Virus record (IMG/VR): IMGVR_UViG_3300024346_000327
Span: 1-31,247 of that record
DNA from: a virus
Length of the DNA stretch: 31,247 nt
Direction: 5' to 3' (one strand)
Positions 6,027-28,927 of the stretch are shown in pieces; the stretch's first letter is position 1, and every line of letters starts with the position of its first letter. Position numbers and translations under genes: made by a program. The notes beneath the pieces were generated by a model. The model did not search any database and was not told the origin of the DNA. It worked only from the letters and a program-made list of their open reading frames with translations.

Positions 6027-6228
6027 TCAAAATAAAACTATTAATAATTTGGAAGGGGGAAGTCAAAAACTTCTCCCTTCTGATTTTTATATTGAAAATG
6101 GAATTTATGTGTTCACAAAAGAGTTTCATTTAAGGAGGGGTAGTTGTTGTGGTAATGGTTGTAGACATTGTCCTTTTTTTCCTGCTCACAAAAAAGGGAA
6201 TACAACTATATTTATAGACAATGGCTAA
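6013..6228 (+). CDS. DUF5522 family small protein (Cys-rich, probable metal site)
   Basis: The frame encodes FYIENGIYVFT, then FHLRRGSCCGNGCRHCPFF. This is the hallmark of DUF5522, a family of short proteins I know mainly from Bacteroidota, whose function is unknown. The four clustered cysteines and a histidine (CC-x3-C-x-H-C) look like a metal-binding site. The start is uncertain. GTG 6013 gives 71 residues, overlaps nrdJ by 14 bases and has a G-rich stretch just upstream. ATG 5968 would overlap nrdJ by 59 bases, and TTG 6019 or 6046 are also possible. The stop overlaps the first 8 bases of the gp25-like gene, suggesting coupling. A strong hairpin lies within the N-terminal third. A host-derived accessory gene is the likely origin. 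Confidence 0.72.
   Translation: MKLFNQNKTINNLEGGSQKLLPSDFYIENGIYVFTKEFHLRRGSCCGNGCRHCPFFPAHKKGNTTIFIDNG
6052..6088 (+). terminator. Terminator-like hairpin inside the DUF5522 reading frame
   Basis: The arms GAAGGGGGAAG (6052-6062) and CTTCTCCCTTC (6070-6080) pair over 11 positions with one G-U, around a 7-base A-rich loop. They are followed by TGATTTTTATATT. Stem, loop and T-tract fit an intrinsic terminator placed 26 bases after the nrdJ stop. It would end the DNA-metabolism transcript just before the baseplate genes. It also lies in an open reading frame, so read-through or a start downstream of it is needed for the DUF5522 protein. Confidence 0.55.
6209..6215 (+). promoter_or_regulatory. 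TATTTAT motif just before the gp25-like gene
   Basis: TATTTATA (6209-6216) lies four bases before the ATG at 6221, within the last codons of the DUF5522 gene. It is the exact reverse complement of the T4 late promoter box TATAAATA. The tight spacing argues against a simple promoter for this gene unless the transcript is nearly leaderless. Confidence 0.3.
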
Positions 6229-6679
6229 TGGTGTAACTTATGGTATTAATTTTCCTTTTAATGATTCATTAAAGGGGGATTACCTTTCTTTGTCTCAAAA
6301 TCCTGACCAAGAAATAAGAAGTAATTTAATTCATTTGATTTTAACCCGAAAAGGTAGTAGATATTATTTACCTGATTTTGGTACTAAAATTTATGAATTT
6401 ATTTTTGAACCATTAGATGGTGTTACGTTTGAATCAATTAAAGATGATATTAGAGATAATGTTAGTAAGTATATTCCTAATTTAATTATTAATGATATTA
6501 TTGTTTTACCATATAATGAGTATGAGTCAGTTGGTACTTTAAACACAGAAAATTTAGGAAATGGTGTTTATAGAGTTGCCGGTAGAAACACTTCAGAGTA
6601 CACGGCTAAAATGAGAATTGATTATACAATTAGCGATAACGCATTTCAAACAAAAGATTTTGTAATTATAAATATTTAA
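6221..6679 (+). CDS. 25: Baseplate wedge protein, gp25-like (GPW/gp25 family)
   Basis: The 152-residue protein has the gp25 pattern. A short N-terminal segment is followed by QEIRSNLIHLILTRKGSRYYLPDFGTKI, the conserved helix and R-x-G-x-R...P-x-F-G-T motif seen in gp25 and GpW-like baseplate proteins (about 30-56). Then come IYEFIFEPLD and a second helix (FESIKDDIRDNVSKYIP). In T4 gp25 lies at the inner baseplate, contacts gp6 and gp53, and starts sheath assembly. The length fits T4 gp25 (132 residues) with a small C-terminal extension. The gp6-like gene follows after five bases, matching this partnership. There is no Shine-Dalgarno. Confidence 0.88.
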   Translation: MANGVTYGINFPFNDSLKGDYLSLSQNPDQEIRSNLIHLILTRKGSRYYLPDFGTKIYEFIFEPLDGVTFESIKDDIRDNVSKYIPNLIINDIIVLPYNEYESVGTLNTENLGNGVYRVAGRNTSEYTAKMRIDYTISDNAFQTKDFVIINI

Positions 6680-6684
6680 CATAA

Positions 6685-8502
6685 ATGGCTGAGAAAAGAA
6701 TATCCTATACCGTCCGAGATTTTGCGGCTATAAGACAAGAACTTATTGATTATACTAGACAGTATTATCCTGAATTAATTGACAATTTTAATGACGCATC
6801 AATTTTTTCAGTATTGATGGATTTAAACGCTGCCGTAACCGATAACTTACATTATCATATTGACAGAAGTATTCAAGAGACGGTTCTTGAATTTGCCAAA
6901 CAAAGAAGTTCAATTTACAACATCGCAAGAACTTACGGTTTAAAAATACCTGGTAATAGACCATCAATAGCAGTTTGTGACATTAGTATTAATGTACCTG
7001 TATTTGGTGATAGACCAAACCCTGAATATATGGGTGTATTAAAAGCGGGTTCACAATTTGTTGGTGCGGGACAAACATTTGAAAATCCAAATGATATTAA
7101 TTTCTCTTCTGCATTTAGTTCATCAGGAATCGCAAACCAAAAAGTAATACCAATTTTAGATGCGTCAAACAACGTCCAAAGTTATAATATTGTAAAAAGA
7201 GAAGTAGTGGTTAATGGTATTACAAAAGTATTCAAGAAAGTTATTACACCGGCAGATGCAACACCATTTTTAAGTTTGTATTTGCCCGAAAGAAATGTTG
7301 TTAACGTTTTGTCAATTATACAAAAAGACGGTATAACCTATAATAACGTTCCATCATACCAAGAATTTTTAAGTCCTGTTGGTAAATGGTATGAAGTTCA
7401 AGCTTTAGCCGAAGACACTGTTTTTATTCCTGAACCGGGAAAAACAACTGACCAATCAAATATTAGTGTTGGAAAATATCTTAAAACTAGCAATAAATTT
7501 ATTACTGAGTTTACACCTGAAAACTTTTTAAAGTTAACATTTGGTGGTGGTAATACATCCGCTGATGACCAATTAGCTTCTTTTGCACAAACAGGTGTAC
7601 CACTAAGAATTAATGACTATCAAAATAATTTAAGTTTGGGTTATATCCCAACACCTAATACCACTTTATTTATTCAATATAGAGTTGGTGGTGGACTTGA
7701 AAGTAATGTTGGTGTCAATGTTATCAATACTGTTGGTAATGTATTGTTTGATGTTAATGGAGCGTCTGCTGAAATTGCAAACGCTGTTAGAAACTCAATT
7801 CAATGTACCAACGTAACTGCAGCTATTGGCGGAGCAAATCCACCATCGGTTGAAGAAGTAAGAAATTTGGTTACTTTTAATTTTTCATCACAAAACAGAG
7901 CGGTAACAATTGGTGACTATTATTCTTTAATACAAAAAATGCCAGGACAATTCGGAATACCAGCTAAAGTAGGTATTATAGAAAATAATAACAAAATAAA
8001 TGTTGTATTATTAACACAGGATACTAATGGTAAAATGACACAAAATGTACCAACAGTATTAAAAGATAATGTTGCAAATTATTTAGCAAAATACAGAATG
8101 ATGAATGACTATATTAGTGTTACAACTGGTAAAGTTATTGATTTAGCATTTGAAATTTATATTTCTATTGCAAAAAATACAAACCAAAACTCAATCATTT
8201 CTGATGTTATTACAAAGGTTAATGATTATATGATACCACAAGCAAGAGAATTTGGCCAAAATGTTTTAATATCTGAAATTAAAAGTATAGTTCAAAATAT
8301 TGAGGGTGTTGTTAATATATCTGATGTTAAGGTGTTTGGAAGAGTGGGTGGCAAGTACTCATCATCACAAACAGCACAAAAATACGAAGATTCAACCACA
8401 AAACAAATTAAGTTAATTGACGATATTATCTACGCAGAACCAACAGAATTTTATCAAATCAGATATTCCAATACAGATATCGGTGTCCGTGTGAAACAAT
8501 AA
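6685..8502 (+). CDS. 6: Baseplate wedge protein, gp6-like (baseplate J family)
   Basis: This 605-residue protein starts ISYTVRDFAAIRQELIDYTR and continues with DFNDASIFSVLMDLNAAVTDNLHYHIDR-type sequence (about 37-62). This is the N-terminal signature of T4 gp6 and baseplate J-like proteins. gp6 dimers form the continuous ring of the inner baseplate that opens when the tail contracts. The C-terminal part carries a J-like segment, NRAVTIGDYYSLIQKMPGQFG (about 406-426), then VINISDVKVFG-type strands. T4 gp6 is 660 residues. The gene is five bases after the gp25-like gene, and 70 bases of AT-rich sequence follow it. No Shine-Dalgarno is seen. Confidence 0.88.
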   Translation: MAEKRISYTVRDFAAIRQELIDYTRQYYPELIDNFNDASIFSVLMDLNAAVTDNLHYHIDRSIQETVLEFAKQRSSIYNIARTYGLKIPGNRPSIAVCDISINVPVFGDRPNPEYMGVLKAGSQFVGAGQTFENPNDINFSSAFSSSGIANQKVIPILDASNNVQSYNIVKREVVVNGITKVFKKVITPADATPFLSLYLPERNVVNVLSIIQKDGITYNNVPSYQEFLSPVGKWYEVQALAEDTVFIPEPGKTTDQSNISVGKYLKTSNKFITEFTPENFLKLTFGGGNTSADDQLASFAQTGVPLRINDYQNNLSLGYIPTPNTTLFIQYRVGGGLESNVGVNVINTVGNVLFDVNGASAEIANAVRNSIQCTNVTAAIGGANPPSVEEVRNLVTFNFSSQNRAVTIGDYYSLIQKMPGQFGIPAKVGIIENNNKINVVLLTQDTNGKMTQNVPTVLKDNVANYLAKYRMMNDYISVTTGKVIDLAFEIYISIAKNTNQNSIISDVITKVNDYMIPQAREFGQNVLISEIKSIVQNIEGVVNISDVKVFGRVGGKYSSSQTAQKYEDSTTKQIKLIDDIIYAEPTEFYQIRYSNTDIGVRVKQ

Positions 8503-8572: not shown

Positions 8573-11500
8573 ATGCCTAAAACTTATAGGATACGAACAT
8601 CAGTAGGAAATAGTACACAATCTGACAAAACCATCAAAGTACAAGTTGACCAAGATTTTGATTTCTTGGAAATTCTTTCTTTGAAACTTACACAATCTGA
8701 TGTGTATAGAAGTTTTTGTTCTGACTACGGTGTTGTCGTTGGTCGTGTTGTTGCCAACGGTGGATACGGTGTACCAAATGCAAAAGTATCTGTGTTTGTA
8801 CCAATTGATGCTGTTGACCAAAATGACCCTGTAATATCAGCATTATATCCTTATAAGAATGTTACAGATAAAAATGAAGATGGTTATAGATATAACTTAC
8901 TTCCGTATACACCTTCATATGAAGGACACGCAGCCACAGGTACTTTTCCAACAAGGGATGATGTTTTAACAAGAACTGAAGTATTACAAATATATGAAAA
9001 ATATTACAAGTACACAGTAAAGACAAATGAATCGGGTGACTACATGATTGTTGGTGTTCCTTTGGGAAATCAACAAGTAATGTTGGATTTAGATTTATCT
9101 GACATGGGTTGTTTCTCATTAAGACCAACAGATTTACTTAGAATGAATCTTGGTAACCCAAAACAGTTTGACGGTAACCAATTTAAAAGTTCAGTTGATT
9201 TATCATCATTACCACAGATTGTTAACCAAAGAAGAAGTATTTCTGTTTCTTCATTTTGGGGAACAGGAGATGTTTGTGATGTTGGAATTACAAGAGTTGA
9301 TTTTGATTTAAGAGATTCAAATATCACGATTGAGCCTACGGCAACTTTTATGGGTTCAATCATGACATCTAACGATGGTGTCATGTTGAAAAACAATTGT
9401 AAACCAAGTTCAGAACAAGGTGACTTGTGTGGTATGGTTGCAGGACCTGGTAGAATTTTAGCCGTAAGACAAACAATAAATACCAATCTTAATGGTGACC
9501 CAATATTAGAACAATACCAATTAGAACAAGGTGGTAAAGTTATTGATGAAAATGGTGCCTTTGTTGTTGATGTACCAATGAACTTGGATTATGTAACAAC
9601 AAATGAATTTGGTGAATTAATATTTTCAAATATTCCAAGTGTTGGGATTCCAACAAAAGGTAAGTACCGATTTAAAGTTAAAACAAATGAAGGTGAAAAA
9701 GAAGTTGGAGCAATACAAACATCAAGTAGTATTATTGGTCCAAACTTATTAAATCTTTCAGCATTCAATCCAAAAGGTAGTTTATTACGTGGAAACTTTT
9801 TGGTTCCAAATATTAGAGAATATGGTTGGGATGGCAATGTTGACCCATCAACTAAAAGTAATGAAACTACAACATTTTCACCAATATTTAATGATAACAC
9901 CAAATTAATTGAAACAAAAACTTTTGATTCATCTAATTTTGGTTCAGGTGGAAGAGCGTTATTAATTAGTTCAGTTTTAGGTGAATATAAAAGTATAACA
10001 TATAAAATTAATAATGTTAGCGATAATTCTAAATGGGTTGATTTACCAAACTTAATAGACAAATTAGAAATTACAGTTGAGAAAAAAACAACCACAACCG
10101 TTGTTAACGGAGTTGTAATTGAAACACCACAAACAATAACTATTAATTTTAATAGTTACGATTATAAATTTTCACTATTTCAAAGGTCATACGCCTTTTC
10201 ATTAGATTGGGATGATTACCCTAATAAAAACGAAGCCATTGGTTGTCAAGATTTTTTCTATGAATTTAATTATAACAAAGTTTATACAACCGCACAACTA
10301 ATTGATGAGTATAGGAAAGGAACAAATAGAAGTAGATTCCTATCTATTAAAGAAATATTAGACAGAAGTTGTGACTCAGAAGTAAATAAGTTTCCAATCA
10401 ATGACGGGGTTAGAAACTTTGATTTACTATATTTCATAGTTTCAATTTTATTCCAAATATTTGGTATTATAGGTGGGTTAATAATAATAATCTATCATAT
10501 TATTAAATTTTTATGGAACAACTTCGCACCTGTAATATTACTTGGATTAATTACTCTATCAATTGTCAACGGGGTTAATGAATTTGCGGCTGCTCTTGGA
10601 ACTACTGTTTTGGCTGGTACAACATTTGGAGCTGCGTTAGTACTTTACCTACCATTTATTGCCAAATCAATTGCTTGGTTTGCAGCCGCGGCAACACTAA
10701 CAATACTGTTTAATAAAATTAGAAAATTTAGATTTCCATCCTTTAATTTACCTATGATTACATACCCCGATTGTTCAACATGTGATTGTGGAACATCAGG
10801 AGACAATAACTTTGCGGTGGATACTTTAGGTAATGGTGATGTCAACTCATCCCCGATGGCTGATGTAAATCTACCCGGAGCTTATGTATCATTTGATGGT
10901 GACGATATAGTATCACTTAAGAAAAATGGTGGGTACGGTGAAGTATTTGCAGGTAATGATACTGTAGACACTAAAAACTTTGCTCGTACACCATTTTATA
11001 GTAATGCTGCTAAAGAATTTTATTGGAGTAGAAATAATATACCAATCCCTGAAAGGATTAACCTATACAATACAAAGGGACATTATTTTACAACTTTACC
11101 TGGCGGTGGTTCTAATAGAATTAAAGTTTATCCAAACTACATAGATAATGGTGGTAAAACTTCTTTCACAAACGCTGTGTTTTATGAAGACCAACCAATG
11201 GTCTTTTTGGTAGACTCAGACGCTTTAACAACATTCCAAACAGGAAGTTTAATATCTTTTGTTAGTTTGGCAAAAACTTATGATGTGAATATTTTAAGTG
11301 TATCAACAGTTCAAAATGGGTTAAATAATTATTCTGTCACAGGAACAACAATTCCATCGGGACTTACTACACCTATCAGTATTAGCTATGCAAATCCAAA
11401 CGGTAGTGGTGTTTTAACACCGAAATTTAACGTTAAACAAACATTATATGACGGTATTGGTAGTTACACATTCCCATCTGATATTGAATATCACCAAGTG

Positions 11501-13876
11501 GTTACAGCAACTACAGTAGGTGCAATACAAAATATTGTTAATTCAAAAACACATGATACAACATTATATGAAAGTAGTTTTTACAATAGAATTATTAATG
11601 GTCAGATGACTGTTTATTTTGATAAAGTTAAAGATGAAAATAATGAAAACCCAAAAAGTGGTGATGACACAAAAACACCACTACAATTAATTGAAAATTA
11701 TAAAAACTTAGGGGTGATAATCTTAATGAAGGGAGTTGACCCATATACTACAAGACAAAAAACAAAAATTGATATTTCAAAACCATTTGGACTTGTTGAT
11801 GGCTCTATGGTTGTTGAGTCGGATTATAAGTTAAACATACCAATAGCGCCAAATTTAAATCTTCTTAGACATGATTCATTAGTTAATAATAATGTTACAT
11901 TATTCAATCAATCATATGTGTTTACACCATCAATTGGTAGTGACTCATTTAAGTACAGTGCTTACACAACACACAACCATTCACTTTATTCAAATTTTGA
12001 TTCTGACCATGACTCTAATAATACAACAATTGGAGTTACGTCAACAATTGATTCTATTGGTACTCAGATAAGCGGTTATTATGCCGCAGGAACTAATGTA
12101 CCATCAGGATTTTGGGTGGGACCAAATACCTATGTATCAGGTCCTAATGGATATTATACTAATGAATATGTTGAAGGTGGTGGATTAATGACTAGAAAAT
12201 GTTCTAAAGAAGGCACAAACAACTTTTTAGGACAATGTGGTGCTGGTTCCGTAACCTACAGTACAAATGTTTATTCAACGGGCATTACTCTTGATATGTC
12301 AACAAGTACTAAAATTATCATGAGGTCGGATAGATTACCACGTTCAAGCTCATTTGATGATAGATTTGTTTTTGCGCAAAATAAGGCTTTTTCTGTTTAT
12401 GTTGTTTCGGATGATGGAGTTTCATCTGAAATTGAAGGTAGCGTAACTTCAAACTCTGATTATACGACAAATAGTGCTGTTGATTTTGAAAATGCTTACG
12501 GTTCAGGAACAACATCAGTTATGAGTAGTTTTAGTTGTAATACAATTGTTCCTTTAGGGGCTTACCAACAAACACCACCAAATCAAATGACACTTAAACC
12601 AAAAGAAGATTCTGTTTATTATACTGATGGTGATACCGAATACCCAATTATAACAAATGGGTGTTATACTTTAGTTGCCAAAGATTTGGCAATCAGTGCT
12701 GATTTAAAATCATTTGCAGAATGGAAATCAAGATTCTTAATGGGTTTTGCAATTTGTAGAAATGTGTTTGGTATGACATTTACAAACAATTGGATTAATG
12801 GTGTTTTATATATGCCAGGGTTCCAAAATGACAAGATATACCCAGGTATTGAAGTTACAAACCCAACCTATGTTTATTGTAAACAAAAGATTGTATTCAA
12901 AGAAGAAAACAATTCATTCTTTTATCGTTCATCACCATTCAATGAAAACAATGGCAACTTTGTTGGAATGAGAAATACTCAAGTTACCGATAATTTTGGC
13001 AATCAATACTTTTTAGGTAATCCGACAACGATTGTAGATTTAGGACCAAAAGACAATATTATTAAAAATGTTTGTGCTCAACCTGAATTTCAAGGATATG
13101 TCTTAGACACATTAAAGGCAACATCCTTCCAAGGAATTAGTGACTTGATACAATTTTTTATTGTAAGTAGATTAACCAACGCAAGTTTCTTAGAAAGACT
13201 TTTAAGTTTGGGTGATTCATCAATTAGCGAGTTATTTAGTAGACCAGCACAAAAAATTGATGGTGATTTTGCACAATTGAACAGTATTAACAATGAAATA
13301 GGTGTTGTACCTTTTTCACCTGAATCATATAGTCAACAGAATTTATTTTACGGAGCAACTCCAAAACCTGTTGTTGGTGTGTTCTTTAGTTCTGATACGG
13401 TAACCAGAGATTATATTTCACCTGGTCGTGAAATATTTATAGACACATCAACAAAATTTGGTTACAACACATTTGGACATAAAACACAACAAGTACCAAT
13501 GTATAAATGGGAAATTAGACAAGGTGATGCAAAATCACCAAGTATCTTTGGTGGTGAACTAAACAATTGGTTAACATCACCTTCAGACTTTTACATCACA
13601 CCGTATCAAGGAATTGATAGGTTAAATGATAGTACATATTTTGCAAGTGAGGTAAAACACCCAACAGTACAAAGACCTGGTTATATTTATAACTCAATAC
13701 CTTTAAAAGATGTTAGTGGTAATGTAACAGGTTTTACATACACAGGATACACAACACCTCCAATAAACGCAGGTAATAGAGTTGTGGTTGGAGCACCTTA
13801 TCATTTCTATTTTGGATTGAAAAAAGGTAAGACTGCCTTTGACATATTTGTAACTAAAAATCTAATTAATATATAA
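8573..13876 (+). CDS. Giant baseplate/tail protein with carboxypeptidase-regulatory-like and membrane-type segments
   Basis: The 1767-residue protein follows gp25 and gp6, where T4 has gp7 (1032 residues), so a baseplate wedge or peripheral role is likely. I do not recognise the whole protein. Residues 54-78 (VVVGRVVANGGYGVPNAKVSVFVP) and 147-177 (TVKTNESGDYMIVGVPLGN) look like a carboxypeptidase-regulatory-like beta domain, with a second copy suggested near 255-370. Residues 618-713 are strongly hydrophobic (about 618-646, 651-665, 671-696 and 698-713), enough for three to four membrane helices. A basic run (KIRKFRF) and a CSTCDC cluster (734-739) follow. The rest is beta-rich and Asn/Ser/Thr-rich, as in tail proteins. 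There is no signal peptide. Alternatives are a membrane-contacting spike component or an internal hydrophobic core. The stop overlaps the next start (TAATG). Confidence 0.85.
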   Translation: MPKTYRIRTSVGNSTQSDKTIKVQVDQDFDFLEILSLKLTQSDVYRSFCSDYGVVVGRVVANGGYGVPNAKVSVFVPIDAVDQNDPVISALYPYKNVTDKNEDGYRYNLLPYTPSYEGHAATGTFPTRDDVLTRTEVLQIYEKYYKYTVKTNESGDYMIVGVPLGNQQVMLDLDLSDMGCFSLRPTDLLRMNLGNPKQFDGNQFKSSVDLSSLPQIVNQRRSISVSSFWGTGDVCDVGITRVDFDLRDSNITIEPTATFMGSIMTSNDGVMLKNNCKPSSEQGDLCGMVAGPGRILAVRQTINTNLNGDPILEQYQLEQGGKVIDENGAFVVDVPMNLDYVTTNEFGELIFSNIPSVGIPTKGKYRFKVKTNEGEKEVGAIQTSSSIIGPNLLNLSAFNPKGSLLRGNFLVPNIREYGWDGNVDPSTKSNETTTFSPIFNDNTKLIETKTFDSSNFGSGGRALLISSVLGEYKSITYKINNVSDNSKWVDLPNLIDKLEITVEKKTTTTVVNGVVIETPQTITINFNSYDYKFSLFQRSYAFSLDWDDYPNKNEAIGCQDFFYEFNYNKVYTTAQLIDEYRKGTNRSRFLSIKEILDRSCDSEVNKFPINDGVRNFDLLYFIVSILFQIFGIIGGLIIIIYHIIKFLWNNFAPVILLGLITLSIVNGVNEFAAALGTTVLAGTTFGAALVLYLPFIAKSIAWFAAAATLTILFNKIRKFRFPSFNLPMITYPDCSTCDCGTSGDNNFAVDTLGNGDVNSSPMADVNLPGAYVSFDGDDIVSLKKNGGYGEVFAGNDTVDTKNFARTPFYSNAAKEFYWSRNNIPIPERINLYNTKGHYFTTLPGGGSNRIKVYPNYIDNGGKTSFTNAVFYEDQPMVFLVDSDALTTFQTGSLISFVSLAKTYDVNILSVSTVQNGLNNYSVTGTTIPSGLTTPISISYANPNGSGVLTPKFNVKQTLYDGIGSYTFPSDIEYHQVVTATTVGAIQNIVNSKTHDTTLYESSFYNRIINGQMTVYFDKVKDENNENPKSGDDTKTPLQLIENYKNLGVIILMKGVDPYTTRQKTKIDISKPFGLVDGSMVVESDYKLNIPIAPNLNLLRHDSLVNNNVTLFNQSYVFTPSIGSDSFKYSAYTTHNHSLYSNFDSDHDSNNTTIGVTSTIDSIGTQISGYYAAGTNVPSGFWVGPNTYVSGPNGYYTNEYVEGGGLMTRKCSKEGTNNFLGQCGAGSVTYSTNVYSTGITLDMSTSTKIIMRSDRLPRSSSFDDRFVFAQNKAFSVYVVSDDGVSSEIEGSVTSNSDYTTNSAVDFENAYGSGTTSVMSSFSCNTIVPLGAYQQTPPNQMTLKPKEDSVYYTDGDTEYPIITNGCYTLVAKDLAISADLKSFAEWKSRFLMGFAICRNVFGMTFTNNWINGVLYMPGFQNDKIYPGIEVTNPTYVYCKQKIVFKEENNSFFYRSSPFNENNGNFVGMRNTQVTDNFGNQYFLGNPTTIVDLGPKDNIIKNVCAQPEFQGYVLDTLKATSFQGISDLIQFFIVSRLTNASFLERLLSLGDSSISELFSRPAQKIDGDFAQLNSINNEIGVVPFSPESYSQQNLFYGATPKPVVGVFFSSDTVTRDYISPGREIFIDTSTKFGYNTFGHKTQQVPMYKWEIRQGDAKSPSIFGGELNNWLTSPSDFYITPYQGIDRLNDSTYFASEVKHPTVQRPGYIYNSIPLKDVSGNVTGFTYTGYTTPPINAGNRVVVGAPYHFYFGLKKGKTAFDIFVTKNLINI

Positions 13877-15645
13877 TGGGTAACATTCAAAACGATATAA
13901 CAATTATTAAAGGTAACCTTAGATACAAAGGTGCCTCTGAAAGGTTAATATCTTTACCTGTTGAATTTGTTGGTGACCGAAAACAATTAATAGATTCAGA
14001 TAGAAGTAGAAATATTAACGCTGCGGAACAAACTGAAGTTGAAAGACAAGCGTCAACAACATTTAGAATTGGTGGAAAAATATCAAACATATTTTCAAAT
14101 ATTATTTCAGGGACAACTGATTATGATGGGTATAAAAATTTCTTATATCTAACAAATCCATTATCTGTTGTCCAAAACAATCAAATTTTATTTAACAATT
14201 TTGAAAGAGTTCCTGATACATTTGGTTTAAAGTGGGGAGGACTTCCACAGTATAATGAATTTAATTTTATTAGAAACGATGTTGAAAATCCTCACAATGT
14301 TTTACAACCACAAAGTGCTTCAACATATAATTGGGGGGTTTACTTAAGTTATCCATTTTCATCTGACACCAAACAAAAAATGTCATATGTTGATAAACAA
14401 ATTAATGGTACACCATTAACATTTATTGCCGAAGAAGGGATACCTTTTACAATTATTAATACCGTTCAGAAAGGTGTTAACTATATTACTTTCAGATGTG
14501 CTGGTAATCACAACTTAAGAACATATCAATATGTTGAATTATCAATCAACTACAATGGTAATCGTTTATTTAGGGTTGATGTATTGGGTGAACAAGGATA
14601 TGATAATGAAAACACAAGTTTTTCATTCATCAATCCTGGTTATACAGGAACCACATTTGTAAATGGGGTGTCAGGTACATTTAAAAGAATTGGTGACATT
14701 TCAAATTCAGGTGAAAGTAAATCAAGATATTATATTAGATTACATAAAATCTTAACCAATGAAAATGAATCAGATGTTTCCAAAATGGGATTTGAACATG
14801 TACCATTTTCAAATCAGCAAAAAATTGAATATTCGGCACTAACACCAAATTTACAACAAAGAGTTTCTATTAAAGAAAACTCACAGTCATATAGTTTTAC
14901 GTTTAAAAAAGATTTAAATATTGATACAATGGTTGATAACAATATGAAACCAATTACTGACGTATTTGTAACAATTGTTAATAAAGGATATTATGGGTGG
15001 TTTAATAAACCAAAACCAACCATTACTGATAAATATGGATTACAAAAAGGTTGGTCATTTAATTTTCATTCAGATAGTTTGGATGATTGGTGGGAAACAA
15101 ACAACAATAAAAACTTGGTTGAAATACCAATTAGTTCATATAATAAAGTGTCAAACGGTAATACATATACATTTTATTATAATCAACCTTTAAAAATTGA
15201 TGATGTTTTATCAGGTGATTTTTGTGAATATAATGACATTGAGCAGATGGAATATGTTATATCCAATTGTAAACATAAGATAACCTTTAATGATACATTA
15301 TATCAGACTCAAATGTTCACAAGTAATAATCCACCTGGTTATTTTTATACACCACACAATCCTGTTAAGTTAAGGGATTTTGCTGATTCAGTGACAGGTG
15401 CCGTAGGTCAAAATGTGAATACAAGACCATCATGGGCATATTTCTCACAAAACCGTAATACTTGGCTATGGAGAACAATTTTGGAGTATGGTGTTTTTGA
15501 AAATGGAAACGGTGTTGATTATCCGTTTTTAAATGATGCGCATTATCCGTTTTCACAAATATTGTTCTTGCAATCAACACCATTTAGTAACATAAACCAA
15601 TCAGTTGCGGTAACCGCTCAACCAATCAAAGATTTGTGTGAATAA
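13876..15645 (+). CDS. Unknown tail/baseplate structural protein (589 residues)
   Basis: I do not recognise a family. The ATG at 13876 shares its A with the stop of the preceding gene (TAATG), so translation is probably coupled and both products are likely needed together. The sequence is rich in Asn, Thr, Tyr and Phe and looks mostly beta-stranded, with an Arg/Asp-rich N-terminus (about 30-60: VGDRKQLIDSDRSRNINAAE). The C-terminal part has aromatic-rich segments (SWAYFSQNRNTWLWRTILEYG near 530-550). No enzyme motif, signal peptide or membrane segment is seen. Position and composition suggest a virion protein of the wedge or its outer edge. Confidence 0.8.
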   Translation: MGNIQNDITIIKGNLRYKGASERLISLPVEFVGDRKQLIDSDRSRNINAAEQTEVERQASTTFRIGGKISNIFSNIISGTTDYDGYKNFLYLTNPLSVVQNNQILFNNFERVPDTFGLKWGGLPQYNEFNFIRNDVENPHNVLQPQSASTYNWGVYLSYPFSSDTKQKMSYVDKQINGTPLTFIAEEGIPFTIINTVQKGVNYITFRCAGNHNLRTYQYVELSINYNGNRLFRVDVLGEQGYDNENTSFSFINPGYTGTTFVNGVSGTFKRIGDISNSGESKSRYYIRLHKILTNENESDVSKMGFEHVPFSNQQKIEYSALTPNLQQRVSIKENSQSYSFTFKKDLNIDTMVDNNMKPITDVFVTIVNKGYYGWFNKPKPTITDKYGLQKGWSFNFHSDSLDDWWETNNNKNLVEIPISSYNKVSNGNTYTFYYNQPLKIDDVLSGDFCEYNDIEQMEYVISNCKHKITFNDTLYQTQMFTSNNPPGYFYTPHNPVKLRDFADSVTGAVGQNVNTRPSWAYFSQNRNTWLWRTILEYGVFENGNGVDYPFLNDAHYPFSQILFLQSTPFSNINQSVAVTAQPIKDLCE

Positions 15646-17618: not shown

Positions 17619-18143
17619 ATGAAATCTTGTAGTGTGTGTAATATAGTTAAGAATTTAACCGAATTTAATAACCAAGAAAAAGGTAAATTTGGTAAAAGAA
17701 GTTATTGTAGGGAGTGCCAATCAAGAAATAAAAAAGAATACGATAGTAAAAACAAAGAAAAAAATAAAAATTATTCAATTGAATACCGTAAAAAAAATCC
17801 AAAATATGTCAGTGAATATCAAAAAAATAGAAGAAAAAAAGATTTAAATTTTAGGTTAATTGGAAACTTACGTGCTAGATTATGTAATATTGTCAAAAAT
17901 AAAACTAAAAATACATTAGACTGTTTAGGTGTTGATATTGATAAGTTTAAACAACATATCCAAAAACAATTCCAAAATGGGATGTGTTGGGATAATTATG
18001 GTGAATGGCATATTGACCACATAATACCAATTAGTTATGGTAAGAATCAAAAAGAAATTTACAAATTAAATTATTATACCAATTTAAGACCTTTATGGAA
18101 AATTGAAAATTTAAAAAAATCAAATAAATTAATACAACAATAA
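17619..18143 (+). CDS. Free-standing HNH homing endonuclease
   Basis: This 174-residue protein starts with a zinc-ribbon-like element: CSVC (4-7) and CREC (30-33) around KNLTEF. A very basic Lys/Asn/Tyr-rich linker follows, then LRARLCNIVKNKTK with LDCLG and F-x2-H-I. It ends with the HNH core WHIDHIIPIS (130-139) and NLRPLWKIENLKKSNK (155-170). This layout is common for phage HNH homing endonucleases, which cut one or both DNA strands at cognate sites and spread their own gene. It lies between two intact structural genes and breaks the otherwise overlapping gene chain, so it is probably a mobile insert. Its sequence is visibly richer in AAA and AAT codons than its neighbours. The product is full-length by eye. 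Confidence 0.9.
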   Translation: MKSCSVCNIVKNLTEFNNQEKGKFGKRSYCRECQSRNKKEYDSKNKEKNKNYSIEYRKKNPKYVSEYQKNRRKKDLNFRLIGNLRARLCNIVKNKTKNTLDCLGVDIDKFKQHIQKQFQNGMCWDNYGEWHIDHIIPISYGKNQKEIYKLNYYTNLRPLWKIENLKKSNKLIQQ

Positions 18144-18144
18144 A

Positions 18145-19056
18145 ATGGCACTAGGAACATATGGTATAACTCGCCCAGCCGACATGGCACCTGAAGATGT
18201 AGAAATCATCATGGTGTATACACCGTCAAGAGATTTTACGTCAACACCAATAATTAAAAAACTTAACTCATCTCAGATATTAACACCGTATTTTAATAAC
18301 GCAAGTACAGGTGGTAATACAAATGAAATATTGGGGGGTCTTTATAATTTAAAACTACCAGCAACTGAATTTAATAAAATTGGTATCTACACTTTAATGA
18401 TTAGACCGGCACAAATCAGAACAACATTAACTGATTGCGGTGTTTTATCAGCATTACCAAGTGTTAAAGGTGTTGTGGTGGATACAAACAACGTACCTTC
18501 AGCCTTTAGAAATAGATTTGTGTCTCAAGGATTGGTTGGATATCGTATTGAATATTTAAACACAGATGGTACAAAGATACCAAATTTTTATAGAATTATA
18601 ACTTCATCATTTTTTGTTGATACTGTCGTTAGTAACCCTGCGGCGGGTAACACAAACTCTGTTAGATATAGATACATTGATTCACCAAGTGCAAGAAACT
18701 TAGTGTTTGCAACGGTATCACCTTCAAGTGCACCGTCAAACAATCCAAACGCAGTTCCTTACATTGGACAGCCAGGACAACAAGTTGTTTTAACAAATAC
18801 ATTCTTTAACCCATTCACAGTTGAAATTGAAATGGCGGAATACGACTTAAACAGTGTTGCAATCGCTCTTTATGGTAATCAGACCAAAGCAATTGATACT
18901 GGATTATACACTATCTACGACTCAGATAATAGAATTTACAAACAATACAACTTGTTTGAAATCAGAAGTGACTTTAACGACTTATTATATGAGGTTCGTC
19001 AAGATAGAAACAATAACATTGACTTTAGTGTTAGTTTTGACAACATCATACCATAA
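18145..19056 (+). CDS. Unknown tail/baseplate structural protein (303 residues)
   Basis: The ATG at 18145 lies one base after the endonuclease stop, and the gene ends in a TAATG junction with the next one. The product begins MALGTYGITRPADMAPEDVE and includes IIMVYTPSRDF and a central IYTLMIRPAQIRTTLTDCGVL segment. Near the C-terminus are VEIEMAEYDLNSVAIALYGNQ and YDSDNRIYKQYNLFEIRSD. I do not recognise the family. There is no membrane segment or enzyme motif. Its close coupling to the 973-residue protein, and its probable coupling to the 367-residue protein before the endonuclease inserted, suggest a baseplate role. Confidence 0.8.
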   Translation: MALGTYGITRPADMAPEDVEIIMVYTPSRDFTSTPIIKKLNSSQILTPYFNNASTGGNTNEILGGLYNLKLPATEFNKIGIYTLMIRPAQIRTTLTDCGVLSALPSVKGVVVDTNNVPSAFRNRFVSQGLVGYRIEYLNTDGTKIPNFYRIITSSFFVDTVVSNPAAGNTNSVRYRYIDSPSARNLVFATVSPSSAPSNNPNAVPYIGQPGQQVVLTNTFFNPFTVEIEMAEYDLNSVAIALYGNQTKAIDTGLYTIYDSDNRIYKQYNLFEIRSDFNDLLYEVRQDRNNNIDFSVSFDNIIP

Positions 19057-21977
19057 TGGCTAAAATAGTAGTCCCAAATACCGGCGCCGGTTTTATTAGT
19101 CCCAACGAAGATTTAGTTGGATTTCAGACTACGCAAGGTGGTGGATTAACAAATACCAATTTTATTTGGAATTACGGAGTTGTTGAAAAAATTGATAAAG
19201 ATTATCAATCGGGTGTTTTTTCAAATCCAATTACTTTAAGTGATTTAAATGTTGATATTGAAGAAGCGAAAAAGGCATTATCGGTTGACCTAAAAGTTTA
19301 TCCATCATATGATTTAACTGAGGTAACCAATTTTACATTATACGGTTCACTAACCAAAAGATTTTCAGCATCGGTAACACAAATTATTAATTTCTTTCCA
19401 GCGGCGATTGAAGTTGATGAAGTTTATTTTGATTACAGTACCGCAAATACGGCAACAAATATAGTTTATAATCAAAACGAAAATACGACAAGTTTTGATG
19501 TTGACGTATCAAGGATTAAAAATATTTTTGATATTGATTTTTCACAAAACGCGGCAAGAAATATCGCTCTTAGACCAACACCTGTTAGTCCATTAAGAGA
19601 TATGACAAGTTACTATAAAGATTATTCTTTATTTATTGGAACTGGCTCAACTGAATACCAATTCCTTTTATTCACACCATCAACATCAATAAGTGCTGGT
19701 ACAATATCAGTTATTGTTAGTGGTAATCCTTTTTCAAATGTTAATACAACAACAAACACTTTGGTAATGAGACCAAACAAAATGAAAACCGAAATGGTTT
19801 TTGAAAATGATTTTGATGCTGTTGAAAAATTCTTATTAAATAGATTTATTGTTCCAAAATATACGGCACAATTTAAACTTCCAAAACAAACTGATGATGG
19901 AACTTTTTATACATCATATGTATTTTTAACTTGGCCGTTATTGGGTGTTTGGAATTTAGATATCCTAACAACTGCCTATGAAGCTTACTTAGAAACATTG
20001 AGTTCATATGGTGAACAACTTGATACTTTTAAAACAAATTTAATTAGCAGATTTTTAACCACAGATGCTTTTCACGAATTTGATACAAAAGACCAAAAGG
20101 TAGATAAAGTATTACAAATATACGGTAGAAGTTTTGATGAAACAAAAGTTTTTATTGATTCATTGGCAACAATGACATCAGTGGGTTATGTTCCTGAAAA
20201 TGATATACCATCTGCATTGTTGGTTTATTTGGCCAAAACTTTGGGTTGGGACACTGGTATTTCACCAATAACTAATGAGGATTTTTTAACTGCAATTTAT
20301 GGTGTTAAAAACAAATCAATTTATGAAGGTTGGACAAGAGACCAAACACCATCAGAATTAAACTTTGAATATTATAGAAGATTAATATTAAACGCATCAA
20401 ATTTATTCCGTTCAAAAGGTACAAGACAGTCTGTTGAATTTTTAATGAGAACAGTTGGAGCACCCGACGCTTTAGTTGAATTCAATGAAACAATATACAC
20501 CGCAGACAGGAAATTAAAATATGTGGATTTCATAACACAATATGTTCAAATTTCGGGTGGAACATATTTACAACAATTACCTGGTTATTTACCTGGTTCA
20601 GAATATAAAATTAAAGGACAGACATTTAGTGCGTTCACAACAAACTTAGCGTCATCTGTATCTGATTTTTCAATTACCGACTATCCAATTAACATTGATG
20701 GATACCCTAAGACACCTGACCAAACAACAAATTTCTTTTTTCAACAAGGACAAGGTTGGTACGAACAAAATTCATTTCACGTTAGTGAAAACGTAGTTCA
20801 AGTTTCAACTTTAACATTTACAGGAACAAGCCCAAATACACAAGTGACACAATTAGCTCCGTCATTTGGACAACAATTTTTACAAAGATACAGAAACTTC
20901 CCAAATATGGGTAGTTTAGGATTTAATATTAGTGCTAATAAAGATAACCAAAAATCTTTAGCTGGTGGAGTACAAACTGAACTTGATAATAGTTTAGTGT
21001 TAAACGTTAAAAATGTTGATTTATTTTTAAATGTTGGACAAGGTATTACTTATGATGTTTGGTCACAATCAAATGAATATGATTACCCAATTCCATATAC
21101 AGGATTAACAACACCATATCCATCACCTGGTAATATTGATTGGACGGTTATAAATCCACAGCCACAAACAAAGACATTTGCCGAGTTCGCCCAATCATTC
21201 TACCATAACATGATTAATGTTAGAAACAGATGGTTCACAAACGATGGAAAATCTTCAGGATACCCAACACTTCAATTAGTGTATTGGAATTATTTACAGT
21301 CATTAGAACTAGCGGGTGTTGACACATCAAAATACACTTACCAAAAAATGATTGACTATTCAATTGGACTTGGTAGTTATTGGACAAAATTGGTGGAACA
21401 AGTAATTCCTTCATCAACCATTTGGAATGGTGGAATTAAATACGAAAACTCAGCCTTCCACAGACAAAAATATGTTTATAGAAAACAAAGAGGTTGTCAG
21501 TTCATTGCGGTACCATGTGTACCTTGTACAGCAAACGGTGTTCTATATGCTTACGATTGTATTGATGAAACAATATCAGGGGCAACAATTCCTTGGAGTG
21601 GAACAAGCTCAACAATTGAATCTTTCTCAGATGCGTTGTATACTGCGTTAAATGGTGTTGTAGCTTCACAAGGATATCAATTACAAAACTGTGACCTTAA
21701 CTCAATTACATCTGTTTGGTATATTGATTTAAGATTAGATAGTACAATATTAGTACAACAACCATTCTTTACTGGGTACGGAATAACAGGGGTACCAACA
21801 GAACAACAATGGATTGACGGATTGGATACTTACCTATCAACTATTTACCAATATGGATTAAACTATAATGTTAATTCAGAAAGAATTATAATATCAAACT
21901 CAGGTTGTATGGAATTATTTAAAAACAAAACACTCACTCTTAATATAGGGATAAACGCAAATATTTCTTGTGGATAA
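19056..21977 (+). CDS. Large baseplate/tail protein (tail protein I / gp7-like segment) with C-terminal shared module
   Basis: This 973-residue protein has a central helical part with LIVYLAKTLGWD-like sequence and FRSKGTRQSVEFLMRTVGAP (about 451-470). The latter resembles the F-R-S-K-G-T-R-x-x-x-E-x-L motif of P2 gpI-type and wedge proteins that link baseplate to fibres. I treat this as a probable, not proven, homology. Its N-terminus (FISPNEDLVGFQTTQGGG) is beta-rich. The last about 145 residues, from YAYDCIDETISGA, form a separate module that closely resembles the C-terminus of the following protein (FFTGYGITGVPTEQQW against FYTGTTLTDVPTESEW). It contains several Cys (CQFIAVPCVPC region). 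The start overlaps the previous stop (TAATG). The role is probably wedge-to-fibre connection. Confidence 0.8.
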   Translation: MAKIVVPNTGAGFISPNEDLVGFQTTQGGGLTNTNFIWNYGVVEKIDKDYQSGVFSNPITLSDLNVDIEEAKKALSVDLKVYPSYDLTEVTNFTLYGSLTKRFSASVTQIINFFPAAIEVDEVYFDYSTANTATNIVYNQNENTTSFDVDVSRIKNIFDIDFSQNAARNIALRPTPVSPLRDMTSYYKDYSLFIGTGSTEYQFLLFTPSTSISAGTISVIVSGNPFSNVNTTTNTLVMRPNKMKTEMVFENDFDAVEKFLLNRFIVPKYTAQFKLPKQTDDGTFYTSYVFLTWPLLGVWNLDILTTAYEAYLETLSSYGEQLDTFKTNLISRFLTTDAFHEFDTKDQKVDKVLQIYGRSFDETKVFIDSLATMTSVGYVPENDIPSALLVYLAKTLGWDTGISPITNEDFLTAIYGVKNKSIYEGWTRDQTPSELNFEYYRRLILNASNLFRSKGTRQSVEFLMRTVGAPDALVEFNETIYTADRKLKYVDFITQYVQISGGTYLQQLPGYLPGSEYKIKGQTFSAFTTNLASSVSDFSITDYPINIDGYPKTPDQTTNFFFQQGQGWYEQNSFHVSENVVQVSTLTFTGTSPNTQVTQLAPSFGQQFLQRYRNFPNMGSLGFNISANKDNQKSLAGGVQTELDNSLVLNVKNVDLFLNVGQGITYDVWSQSNEYDYPIPYTGLTTPYPSPGNIDWTVINPQPQTKTFAEFAQSFYHNMINVRNRWFTNDGKSSGYPTLQLVYWNYLQSLELAGVDTSKYTYQKMIDYSIGLGSYWTKLVEQVIPSSTIWNGGIKYENSAFHRQKYVYRKQRGCQFIAVPCVPCTANGVLYAYDCIDETISGATIPWSGTSSTIESFSDALYTALNGVVASQGYQLQNCDLNSITSVWYIDLRLDSTILVQQPFFTGYGITGVPTEQQWIDGLDTYLSTIYQYGLNYNVNSERIIISNSGCMELFKNKTLTLNIGINANISCG

Positions 21978-24100
21978 TGGCAAATTTTCAGTATGAGTTT
22001 TCAGTAACGGGCGATTGTACAAGTAATGGTAGTGGTGCTATCTATATATCTCTTTCGGGAGGTGTTGAACCATATACAATTGATTGGGTAAATCCAAATA
22101 TTGGAACAGGTGACTATAAAACAGGATTAGATGCCGGTGTTTACATTGTAAGAGCTAATGACTCTTTGGGTGATGTTAATAATGAATTCTATATTAACAT
22201 AATTGTGTCAAGCGGTGGTTGTTTAAGTGTAAGTTCTGTTAGTGCAACAACTTGTGGACAAAATAATGGGGTGGTAACTATCAGCGGTGCGTCTACAGCG
22301 TACCCAATTACTGTTAACATTTATTCAGGTAGTACATTAATCCAATCTGCAATTACAACAACAGGTGATGTTTCTTTTATAAATTTAGCGCCTGGCGTTT
22401 ATAGAACATATTATGAAGATTATGGAGGTTGTTCAGGGTATTCAGAATCTGTAATTGTAAATTCATCAACACCTGTTGATTATGGATTTTTTATTGTAAA
22501 TGATACAAATTGTTTTGGGGCAACAGGTAAATTACAAATTACAGGATTAACGGGTTCAGTACCATTTACATACCTTTGGAGTAATGGTTCAACAGGAACA
22601 ACAATAACAGGATTAACAGCATCAACTTACAGTGTTACCGTAACTGATTCTGAAGGGTGTAGTGTAACCAAAGCGGTTGAAGTTAAAAAAGCTGACCCAT
22701 TACAAATAGTATCTTTCCAAACAGTTAGCCCAAGTTGTTTTGCGGCAGATGGTTCCGTTAATTTAATTATTACAGGTGGAACTGGTCCATATTTTTATTC
22801 AGGTAGTAATGGAACAACTTTAATTAGTTATGCGACCAATCTAACATTTACTGGATTTACGCCAGGAACTGCAATTTTTACTGTTACCGACTCAACATTA
22901 TGTTCAGTAGTTGGTAGTACATATTTACAAGCCGATGCAGGATTTTCAGTATTATCTATTGGAACACAAAATTCAACATGTTCAGCAAGTGGCGGAACAA
23001 TTAGTATTAATGTTGTTGGTAATGGACCGTTTACATATACGTTAGTTAAACCTGATTCAAGTACCGAATCTTTTACAACAAATTTAACAACTCAAAATTA
23101 TAACGATTTAGATTCGGGTGATTATACTGTAATTATTACCAATACTAATGGTTGTGTATTTACACAAGATGTTACTTTATATACAACAGACAAATTTAGT
23201 TTAACAACAATACTTTCAGGTACAACATGTGGACAAAATAATGGTTCATGTCAATTACAAGTTGGTACTGGATATACAGGTGTGTTAGATATGATTTTAA
23301 CTAAAAATAATGTACCTGTAATTCAATACATTGATGTACCACAATCAGCGGTTACATTTAATGGATTATCTTCAGGTAGTTATACATTACAAGTAAGAGA
23401 CGCAGACAACTGCTCTGTTTATAAATCATTTTCAATCAGTGTTTCTAATTCATTGGACTTTGGAATGAGTAGTACTAGTTGTGGTGATAGTAACTCAGGT
23501 GGTACTATTAATGTAAGTGTTTTTTCAGGTACACCACCATTTACATATCAATGGTCAGACAATGTTCCAATTAGTGAATCAGGACCAAGTATTTCAAATT
23601 TAACAGGTGGAACATATGGTTTAACAATTTTAGATTCAAGTAATTGTGTTTTAACAAGAAGTGTTGTTGTTCCATGTACACCTTTTATCAGTAACTACCA
23701 AGTTATACCAATTATTAGTAATGGATTTACAACCACAGTTAATAACAAAAGAGATTTTGAGACAATGGTTAATGAAGGGTTTTACGATTTAACCACAGGC
23801 AATACTAATTGTGTTTTATCAGCGGTTACATATGTTGCAACCATTGAGATTAGTGGTAACACATATGAACAAAATTTTTATACAGGAACAACATTAACTG
23901 ATGTACCAACTGAATCAGAATGGGTGGATGCGTTGGAAGGTATATTATCAGGAATCACAGGTGTTGGAAGTTATACCGTTAATCCATCAACAAATACAGT
24001 TGAAATAAAATCTTATTGTAATGGTAGTCAAAACACATTAAGTAATTCTGAATTTATCATGGGGTTAAGTATTAATTATAGTATTAATTGTCAAACATAA
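21977..24100 (+). CDS. Tail-associated adhesin-like protein with SprB-type repeats
   Basis: The 707-residue protein starts at ATG 21977, sharing its A with the previous stop; an in-frame TTG at 21968 is less likely. It has about seven repeats of 75-90 residues, each ending G-x-Y-x-V-x-x-x-D-x-x-x-C. Clear ends are at Cys152 (EDYGGC), 228 (TDSEGC), 309, 393, 479 and 557; the first repeat (VYIVRANDSLGD) lacks the Cys. Strands such as PFTYLWSNGSTGTTITGLTA (196-215) match the SprB repeat of flavobacterial gliding adhesins. TTCGQNNG begins two repeats (91-98 and 416-423). Residues about 571-707 form a different module, shared with the preceding protein. A surface-exposed stalk or adhesin on the phage tail is likely. 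No signal peptide is seen. Confidence 0.85.
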   Translation: MANFQYEFSVTGDCTSNGSGAIYISLSGGVEPYTIDWVNPNIGTGDYKTGLDAGVYIVRANDSLGDVNNEFYINIIVSSGGCLSVSSVSATTCGQNNGVVTISGASTAYPITVNIYSGSTLIQSAITTTGDVSFINLAPGVYRTYYEDYGGCSGYSESVIVNSSTPVDYGFFIVNDTNCFGATGKLQITGLTGSVPFTYLWSNGSTGTTITGLTASTYSVTVTDSEGCSVTKAVEVKKADPLQIVSFQTVSPSCFAADGSVNLIITGGTGPYFYSGSNGTTLISYATNLTFTGFTPGTAIFTVTDSTLCSVVGSTYLQADAGFSVLSIGTQNSTCSASGGTISINVVGNGPFTYTLVKPDSSTESFTTNLTTQNYNDLDSGDYTVIITNTNGCVFTQDVTLYTTDKFSLTTILSGTTCGQNNGSCQLQVGTGYTGVLDMILTKNNVPVIQYIDVPQSAVTFNGLSSGSYTLQVRDADNCSVYKSFSISVSNSLDFGMSSTSCGDSNSGGTINVSVFSGTPPFTYQWSDNVPISESGPSISNLTGGTYGLTILDSSNCVLTRSVVVPCTPFISNYQVIPIISNGFTTTVNNKRDFETMVNEGFYDLTTGNTNCVLSAVTYVATIEISGNTYEQNFYTGTTLTDVPTESEWVDALEGILSGITGVGSYTVNPSTNTVEIKSYCNGSQNTLSNSEFIMGLSINYSINCQT

Positions 24101-24497: not shown

Positions 24498-26219
24498 ATG
24501 CCATCTTTAGATACTGTTTCCATTTATATTGTAAATAACGCACCAGGGTGTTCAGACTTAACCGTTGAATCACAAGTAAGTTTTTCATCATGTGCTCAAA
24601 CATATATAGTAAGAATTTCTAATCAATCTAATGCGGTAGGACCATTCAGTATTTATTCAGGTTCAACATCAGGAACACCTATAGTATCAGGTGTTACAAG
24701 AGTTAATATGGTTGCAGGTCAAAGCATTTTATTATACAACGACGACCAAACAGGATGTGAAACACCAACTCCAACACCAACCGTTACACCAACTCCAACA
24801 CCAACTCCAACACCAACCGTTACACCAGCCTCGGGAGCAACAAGCACTCCTACACCTACTAATACAGTTACGCCAACCAATACGGTAACACCTACCAATA
24901 CGGTAACGCCTACCAATACGGTAACGCCTACTAATACGGTAACGCCTACTAATACGGTAACACCTACCAATACAGTTACTCCGACCAATACGGTAACACC
25001 GACCAATACGGTAACACCAACTAATACGGTAACACCAACTAATACAGTTACGCCAACTAATACAGTTACGCCAACCAATACGGTAACACCTACTAACACA
25101 GTTACGCCAACCAATACGGTAACACCAACTAACACGGTAACGCCAACTAACACACCAACCAATACCGTAACGCCTACTAACACTGTTACTCCGACTAATA
25201 CGGTTACCCCTACTAAAACAGTTACACCAACCAATACGGTTACACCAACTAATACACCTACCAATACCGTTACTCCAACCAATACGGTTACTCCAACTAA
25301 TACTGTAACACCAACTAAGACACCAACTAATACGCCAACTAATACGCCAACCAATACTGTAACACCTACTGAAACCCCAACTAATACGCCAACGGTTACA
25401 CCAACTAAGACACCAACTAATACGCCAACTAATACGCCAACTAATACTGTAACACCAACTGAAACTCCAACTAATACACCAACTAACACACCGACTAACA
25501 CTCAAACTCCAACAACAACTCAAACACCAACTAATACCGTGACACCGACCAATACCGTGACACCAACCAATACCGTGACACCAACTAATACGCCAACACC
25601 ATCAACAACTCCGCCACCATTACAAGCGTTGTTATTTATGGAATCAGCTGATGATGCTTTAGATAGTGGTAATGTTAATACTGATATTACTTCATATATG
25701 TTGGCGTACAATCCTCTTTCATGGTTAGGATTCCAAACTAGCGGATTACCAACTTTGTCGGACCCTGCCCAAGTTGACGCCTTTAAACATTGGATAGATT
25801 GGCCGGGATTCAAAACAGGTACAACAAATAATTTAAATGGAACATTTAAAATAACTATACCACAAACAAGTGGGGGAGTAGACTCATTTGGAAATTCAAT
25901 TGAAGCCTATAAATTTTTAACAACCGAAGTACCAGCAAATACTGTTAGAGGTAATATTTGGTATGTTGTATTAGCGCCACTATCTATGACAAATAATCAA
26001 ACATATGAAAAAGTAGGTATTAATTATAATGGTAATGCGTCATCACTTACTCTTACAAATACCGACCCGGATACTAGAGCTCAGAATATTGTGTATAGTG
26101 GGTCAAATTTTGTAAACACAACTTATCGTATATACACTAATAGTTCAAATTGGAACGTGGGTGCACCTGGTGTTTTTGATACAACAAATAATTATTTCAG
26201 AGGTGGAACTTTAATCTAA
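24498..26219 (+). CDS. Tail fibre with long Thr-Pro-Asn-Val repeat stalk
   Basis: This 573-residue protein has three parts. Residues 1-88 form a small beta domain with three Cys (APGC, SSC, TGC) that resembles SprB-type strands ([27 protein letters not shown]). Residues 89-374 are a low-complexity Thr/Pro/Asn/Val stalk. Residues about 375-573 form a globular C-terminal domain starting [17 protein letters not shown], with aromatic and Asn-rich strands, probably the receptor-binding tip. The N-terminal domain would attach to the tail. Its C-terminal opening (LFMESADD) weakly recalls the end of the next gene (WLFYEPEGD). There is no catalytic motif. A Thr-rich stalk like this could be glycosylated, which is speculation. 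Confidence 0.82.
24762..25619 (+). repeat. Thr/Pro-rich 18-bp coding repeat (TNTVTP)n
   Basis: The tract encodes PTPTPTVTP-type residues, then 16 uninterrupted copies of the hexapeptide TNTVTP (24858-25145, 16 x 18 bases). Mixed TNTP, TKTP, TETP and TNTV units follow. The peptide is almost invariant in the first block but the codons are not: AAT ACG GTA ACA CCT and AAT ACA GTT ACG CCA alternate. Selection therefore appears to act on the peptide while DNA identity between copies is reduced. Both antisense frames stay open for about 260 codons purely because of this composition. Confidence 0.95.
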
Positions 26220-28897: not shown

Positions 28898-28907
28898 AAA
28901 TTAAAAA

Positions 28908-28914
28908 TATTTAT
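28908..28914 (+). promoter_or_regulatory. TATTTAT motif before the collagen-like fibre gene
   Basis: TATTTATA (28908-28915) lies 13 bases before the ATG at 28928, in a 30-base gap made almost only of A and T. The leader AAAAAATAAAA before the ATG is typical of the SD-less starts in this window. Confidence 0.35.
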
Positions 28915-28927
28915 ATAAAAAATAAAA

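Follow-up and report, generated by a model that had tools for sequence, protein, structure and literature searches.

The window, i.e. the whole 31,247-nucleotide stretch of viral DNA that was analysed, carries on its + strand a gp25-like baseplate wedge/sheath initiator gene (6221..6679; phrog_261, 2.3e-17) and the gene of a gp6/Baseplate_J-like wedge protein (6685..8502; phrog_219, 5.7e-24). Directly downstream of the latter lies an open reading frame for a giant baseplate-module protein of an uncharacterised family (8573..13876, + strand), and its translation confirmed the 1767 residues given for it in the initial annotation, with an ATG start and no internal stops. The next gene encodes a conserved 589-residue neighbour to which no function is assigned (13876..15645, + strand). 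The order gp25, gp6, 1767-aa, 589, 283, 367, 303, 973, 710 is kept across loci; gp6 is found directly upstream of the 1767-residue gene in 102 of 103 loci, and the 589-residue gene directly downstream in all 53 loci showing a downstream reading frame. An endonuclease VII/HNH-like gene (17619-18143) sits between the 367 and 303 genes; it is shared with L012 and L030 and missing in most relatives.

Membership of this region in a T4-like contractile-tail module is supported by the adjacent gp25 and gp6 genes, and by sheath and tube genes in the same genomes. A tail sheath was found in nine of the 11 longer family records, and a record of 133,752 bases also encodes a tail tube, a hub protein and a T4-type portal. 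The sheath frames of the nine records (including G001 49039-52218) span 1037-1281 residues, as compared to 659 residues in T4 gp18. A 532-residue candidate tape measure is separate from the 1767-residue protein and lacks a hydrophobic segment. The nearest cultured relatives are Flavobacterium phage immuto and Microcystis phage Mel-JY01, with 26% identity in gp6 and 38-39% in the portal.

The most conspicuous part of the 1767-residue protein is a membrane-type helical block at residues 618-716 (10424..10720, + strand), delineated by hydropathy, insertion scan, AlphaFold and family alignment, the first helix (618-649) being the best conserved. The hydrophobic stretch described for residues 618-713 in the initial annotation is real: segments with a Kyte-Doolittle (KD) value of at least 1.6 are confined to residues 615-713, and the 19-residue mean peaks at 2.76 (residue 622). 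Other reading frames of the window reach 1.6 or less, none coming near the strength of this block, and 20 shuffled versions of the whole protein gave zero to two short isolated segments, mostly none. An insertion free-energy scan, whose values serve as a relative scale, returned a strong helix at 619-641 (dG -1.45); three more, at 646-666, 671-693 and 697-717, were marginal (dG 0.4 to 1.5), which fits the proposed three to four helices. AlphaFold, run with 48 homologues, placed helices at 618-681 and 687-718, with a block pLDDT of about 60-85 (mostly 70-85). The monomer model of the N-part, of low overall confidence (pTM 0.36), does not fold the block into the core of a soluble domain. The two features noted behind the block are likewise present, namely a basic run after the last helix (NKIRKFR, residues 714-720; 10712..10732, + strand, from the sequence) and the cluster CSTCDC (residues 734-739; 10772..10789, + strand), of which the C-x2-C-x-C pattern is invariant in 48 aligned sequences. 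The mean net charge is -1 before the block and +1.3 after it, a positive-inside bias too weak to decide the topology.

With the family alignment as query, at least 498 tblastn-confirmed stretches were found in IMG/VR; the window protein alone recovered 44 confirmed loci, and divergent family members used as queries returned further confirmed relatives. Sequence searches gave no match to the family in Pfam, PHROG or the PDB, tblastn of INPHARED with two family members detected no cultured-phage relative, a profile search of the whole records of three cultured relatives found no homologue, and a contig scan of bacterial genomes and prophages yielded zero relatives. By these searches, the libraries covered contain no description of the family. 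In L142, L143 and L221 the reading frame of the homologue is broken at differing places, probably due to assembly or consensus errors.

The block and the C-x2-C-x-C motif are kept in all 121 distinct homologues that reach this region, i.e. the hydrophobic segment is conserved next to gp6 and no homologue among the 121 lacks it. Homologue sequences without the motif either stop short of it or have broken frames; L144 is an exception in being a fragment that begins at the block and retains both block and motif. The number of helices predicted at dG<0 just before the motif is one in 29, two in 64 and three in 28 of the 121 homologues. A constant helix number, which would fix the topology, was not seen (one to three at dG<0, one to four at dG<2). 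Conservation of the block was measured on 28 sequences below 80% identity. In this set the block shows a mean identity of 27%, a length of 50-121 residues and a mean KD of 1.58, while the flanks show 66% (residues 539-617) and 56% (720-740) identity. Charged residues make up 7% of the block and 1% of its first helix, and beyond the first helix identity drops to 17-20% with hydrophobicity retained. Judged from the alignment, what the block conserves is hydrophobicity, not exact packing.

Outside the block, the protein is largely beta-rich. The initial annotation had placed carboxypeptidase-regulatory-like domains on both flanks, of which only an N-terminal one is discernible, and there as a weak call (residues 52-175; 8726..9097, + strand), where family members have a mean pairwise identity of 68%. 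PF13620 was matched at E <= 0.1 by 29 of the 48 members, the best at 6e-4, and not by the window protein itself. This region has weak fold similarity to beta-sandwich proteins, and the PDB matches of the N-part (lambda tail fibre gpJ, a dioxygenase, CNA-B-like sandwiches) had TM-scores too low to say more than “beta-sandwich”. The block is preceded by a strongly conserved run-in (residues 539-617; 10187..10423, + strand) that ends in NKFP-NDG-RNFD and contains the invariant C558 and C600, and is followed by a beta-rich region (residues 760-1290; 10850..12442, + strand) with a mostly confident model (pLDDT largely 70-95). A fold search with the C-part returned nothing at E<=0.001 in the PDB or BFVD. 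Thirteen cysteines are invariant in the family (49, 235, 276, 286, 558, 600, 734, 737, 739, 1322, 1364, 1395 and 1436). In the N-part this applies to nine of ten cysteines, as against 17% of all residues, which suggests metal sites or disulphides.

None of the T4 wedge proteins could be recognised in the 1767-residue protein. Comparison with T4 gp7, gpI-type and the relatives' gp7-position proteins gave a best hhalign probability of 6.4 over all targets, and gp8, gp9, gp10, gp11, gp12 and gp53 gave neither a profile match (hhalign) nor a PDB match. A better candidate for gp7 lies further downstream, where a 973-residue reading frame (19056..21977, + strand) without Pfam or PHROG match resembles the large protein after gp6 of immuto and Mel-JY01 (hhalign probability 88 and 86) and is thus probably the gp7 equivalent. 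It follows that the 1767-residue protein, together with the 589, 283, 367 and 303 genes, is probably a clade-specific addition between the gp6 and gp7 equivalents, and by any test applied here not gp7, gp8 or gp10. When the complete records of immuto and Mel-JY01 were searched by profile, no homologue emerged, and their post-gp6 proteins are free of a hydrophobic block.

Contrary to the initial annotation, hydrophobic segments of this kind are not missing from all T4 wedge proteins: gp7 (L223:6061-9159) has one predicted membrane segment (880-902, KD 2.07) and is annotated in RefSeq with “C-terminus is predicted integral membrane domain”. The T4 tape measure gp29 has one as well (KD 2.2). T4 gp7 resembles the 1767-residue protein in its large size, its position directly after gp6 and its predicted membrane segment; it differs in that this segment is single and near the C-terminus, whereas the 1767-residue protein has a multi-helix block followed by C-x2-C-x-C, and no profile match connects the two.

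Hydrophobic helices in tail proteins have precedents. The tape measure pb2 of phage T5 contains 46 hydrophobic residues proposed to insert into the outer membrane as two helices upon infection (PMC10038345). Here the likeness lies in a hydrophobic stretch sufficient for two membrane helices in a tail protein; pb2 is, however, the tape measure of a non-contractile tail tube and without homology to the 1767-residue protein, which adjoins the wedge gene gp6. That membrane helices have moved from the tape measure to the 1767-residue protein is only an idea, the 532-residue tape measure being itself a candidate. Contractile baseplates with membrane segments encoded among or beside the baseplate genes are found in the thylakoid contractile injection system (CIS), with Cis13 and Cis11-12, and in Streptomyces, with CisA (PMC8894136, PMC12237407). 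Deletion of the membrane domain of Cis13 detached the CIS from its membrane (PMC8894136), and firing in Streptomyces requires CisA, a membrane protein whose gene lies just after those of the CIS baseplate (PMC12237407). By description, both differ from the present case in that the systems are bacterial injection machineries fixed in the cell that produces them, with Cis13 resembling a tail fibre and CisA being small and bitopic.

On this basis we tentatively favour, at somewhat less than even confidence, a structural baseplate protein whose stowed helices insert into or grip the host membrane when the tail fires. The 1767-residue protein would be a structural part of the contractile-tail baseplate of an uncultured T4-like clade, situated between the gp6 and gp7 equivalents, with its large beta-rich parts serving as baseplate attachment or cage. 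In the free particle, the two-to-four-helix block would be stowed within an oligomer; rearrangement of the baseplate on the cell would release it, and the released block may insert into or grip a membrane of the host (the outer one being the most likely), where it would anchor the tail or line the entry path. Of this picture, the block with its conservation, the gene order and the contractile tail are observed, whereas virion location and copy number, like stowage, release and insertion, are what we infer for this protein. The reading is favoured because hydrophobicity is kept without sequence or length, as in lipid-facing helices, and it is supported by the gene order with gp25 and gp6, the sheath in the longer records, and the T5 and Cis13 precedents; the conserved membrane-type helices are those expected of an integral membrane or membrane-inserting tail protein. 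Against it speak that only one helix of the window protein is strongly predicted to insert on its own, that a comparable lone segment occurs in T4 gp7, which is yet a soluble wedge protein with solved structures, that confidence in the N-part model is low, and that the helix count varies in the family. The earlier proposal of membrane contact is partly supported.

The main rival is that the helices form the permanent core of a symmetric baseplate oligomer (trimer or hexamer) and never touch a membrane, which we consider possible but rather unlikely. T4 gp7 is a case in point, with a predicted membrane segment (880-902) in a protein that is soluble and has solved structures, and gp6/gp7 junctions are as a rule built around core helix bundles (PMC10457771). 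Moreover, the near-invariant H642 and W648 and the conserved polar positions 624 and 628 of the first helix suggest specific contacts. The wide length range of the block and its low identity past the first helix are, however, difficult to reconcile with a core packed in fixed symmetry, which should be more constrained.

More improbable is an anchoring role at the inner membrane of the host while the phage is assembled, with the baseplate built on, or parts delivered from, that membrane. CisA (PMC12237407) and the anchoring of the CIS baseplate to thylakoids by Cis13 (PMC8894136) offer analogues, and the shift in net charge across the block points the same way, albeit weakly. The protein has no N-terminal signal, however, with 617 soluble residues ahead of the block, and the block belongs to a conserved baseplate-module protein with over 1600 further residues, which suits a structural part over a helper. 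A non-virion membrane protein for host takeover or superinfection exclusion, placed in the operon by chance, would agree with the absence of homologues from described phages, but is very improbable given that the gene keeps its position between gp6 and the 589/973 genes in every group, that a large, beta-rich protein is typical of structural components, and that the family is conserved to the same degree as its structural neighbours.

Returning to the stowed membrane-inserting helices, the constant presence of a membrane-type block and a cysteine cluster suggests that these phages may carry a membrane-piercing or membrane-anchoring baseplate part of their own. It is at present a doubtful proposition that, throughout a large uncultured clade of contractile phages, the membrane anchor or pore of entry is formed by the baseplate and not by the tape measure or spike, through an additional protein between gp6 and gp7 that has a multi-helix membrane-insertion module and a fixed cysteine motif. 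New is the undescribed family; membrane-type helices in tail proteins were already known. For contractile phages it is poorly understood how DNA, once the spike is through the envelope, passes the membranes, and a conserved, common and as yet unnamed protein in which a baseplate position and membrane-type helices come together would provide a concrete, testable part for this step.

The phages concerned are abundant in aquatic metagenomes and have no cultured member. The SprB repeat is a repeat of Bacteroidota adhesins. Such repeats (PF13573, 3e-18), along with a Hoc-like PHROG match, are found in the 710-residue reading frame of the tail module (21968-24100). A related record (G001, the record of L029) encodes at 123606-128141 (L115:3606-8141) a 1511-residue protein whose N-terminus has a hydrophobic segment and whose C-terminal domain is of the CHU_C type IX secretion type. 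Together, the SprB repeats and the secretion signal of this relative indicate that the host of the T4-like clade is probably a member of the Bacteroidota. Three further stretches of the window (24498-26219, 26243-28897 and 28900-31247) encode long TPTNTVTP/GSSGTSG repeat proteins that are probably fibre-like, and coding TPTNT repeats also occur in relatives.
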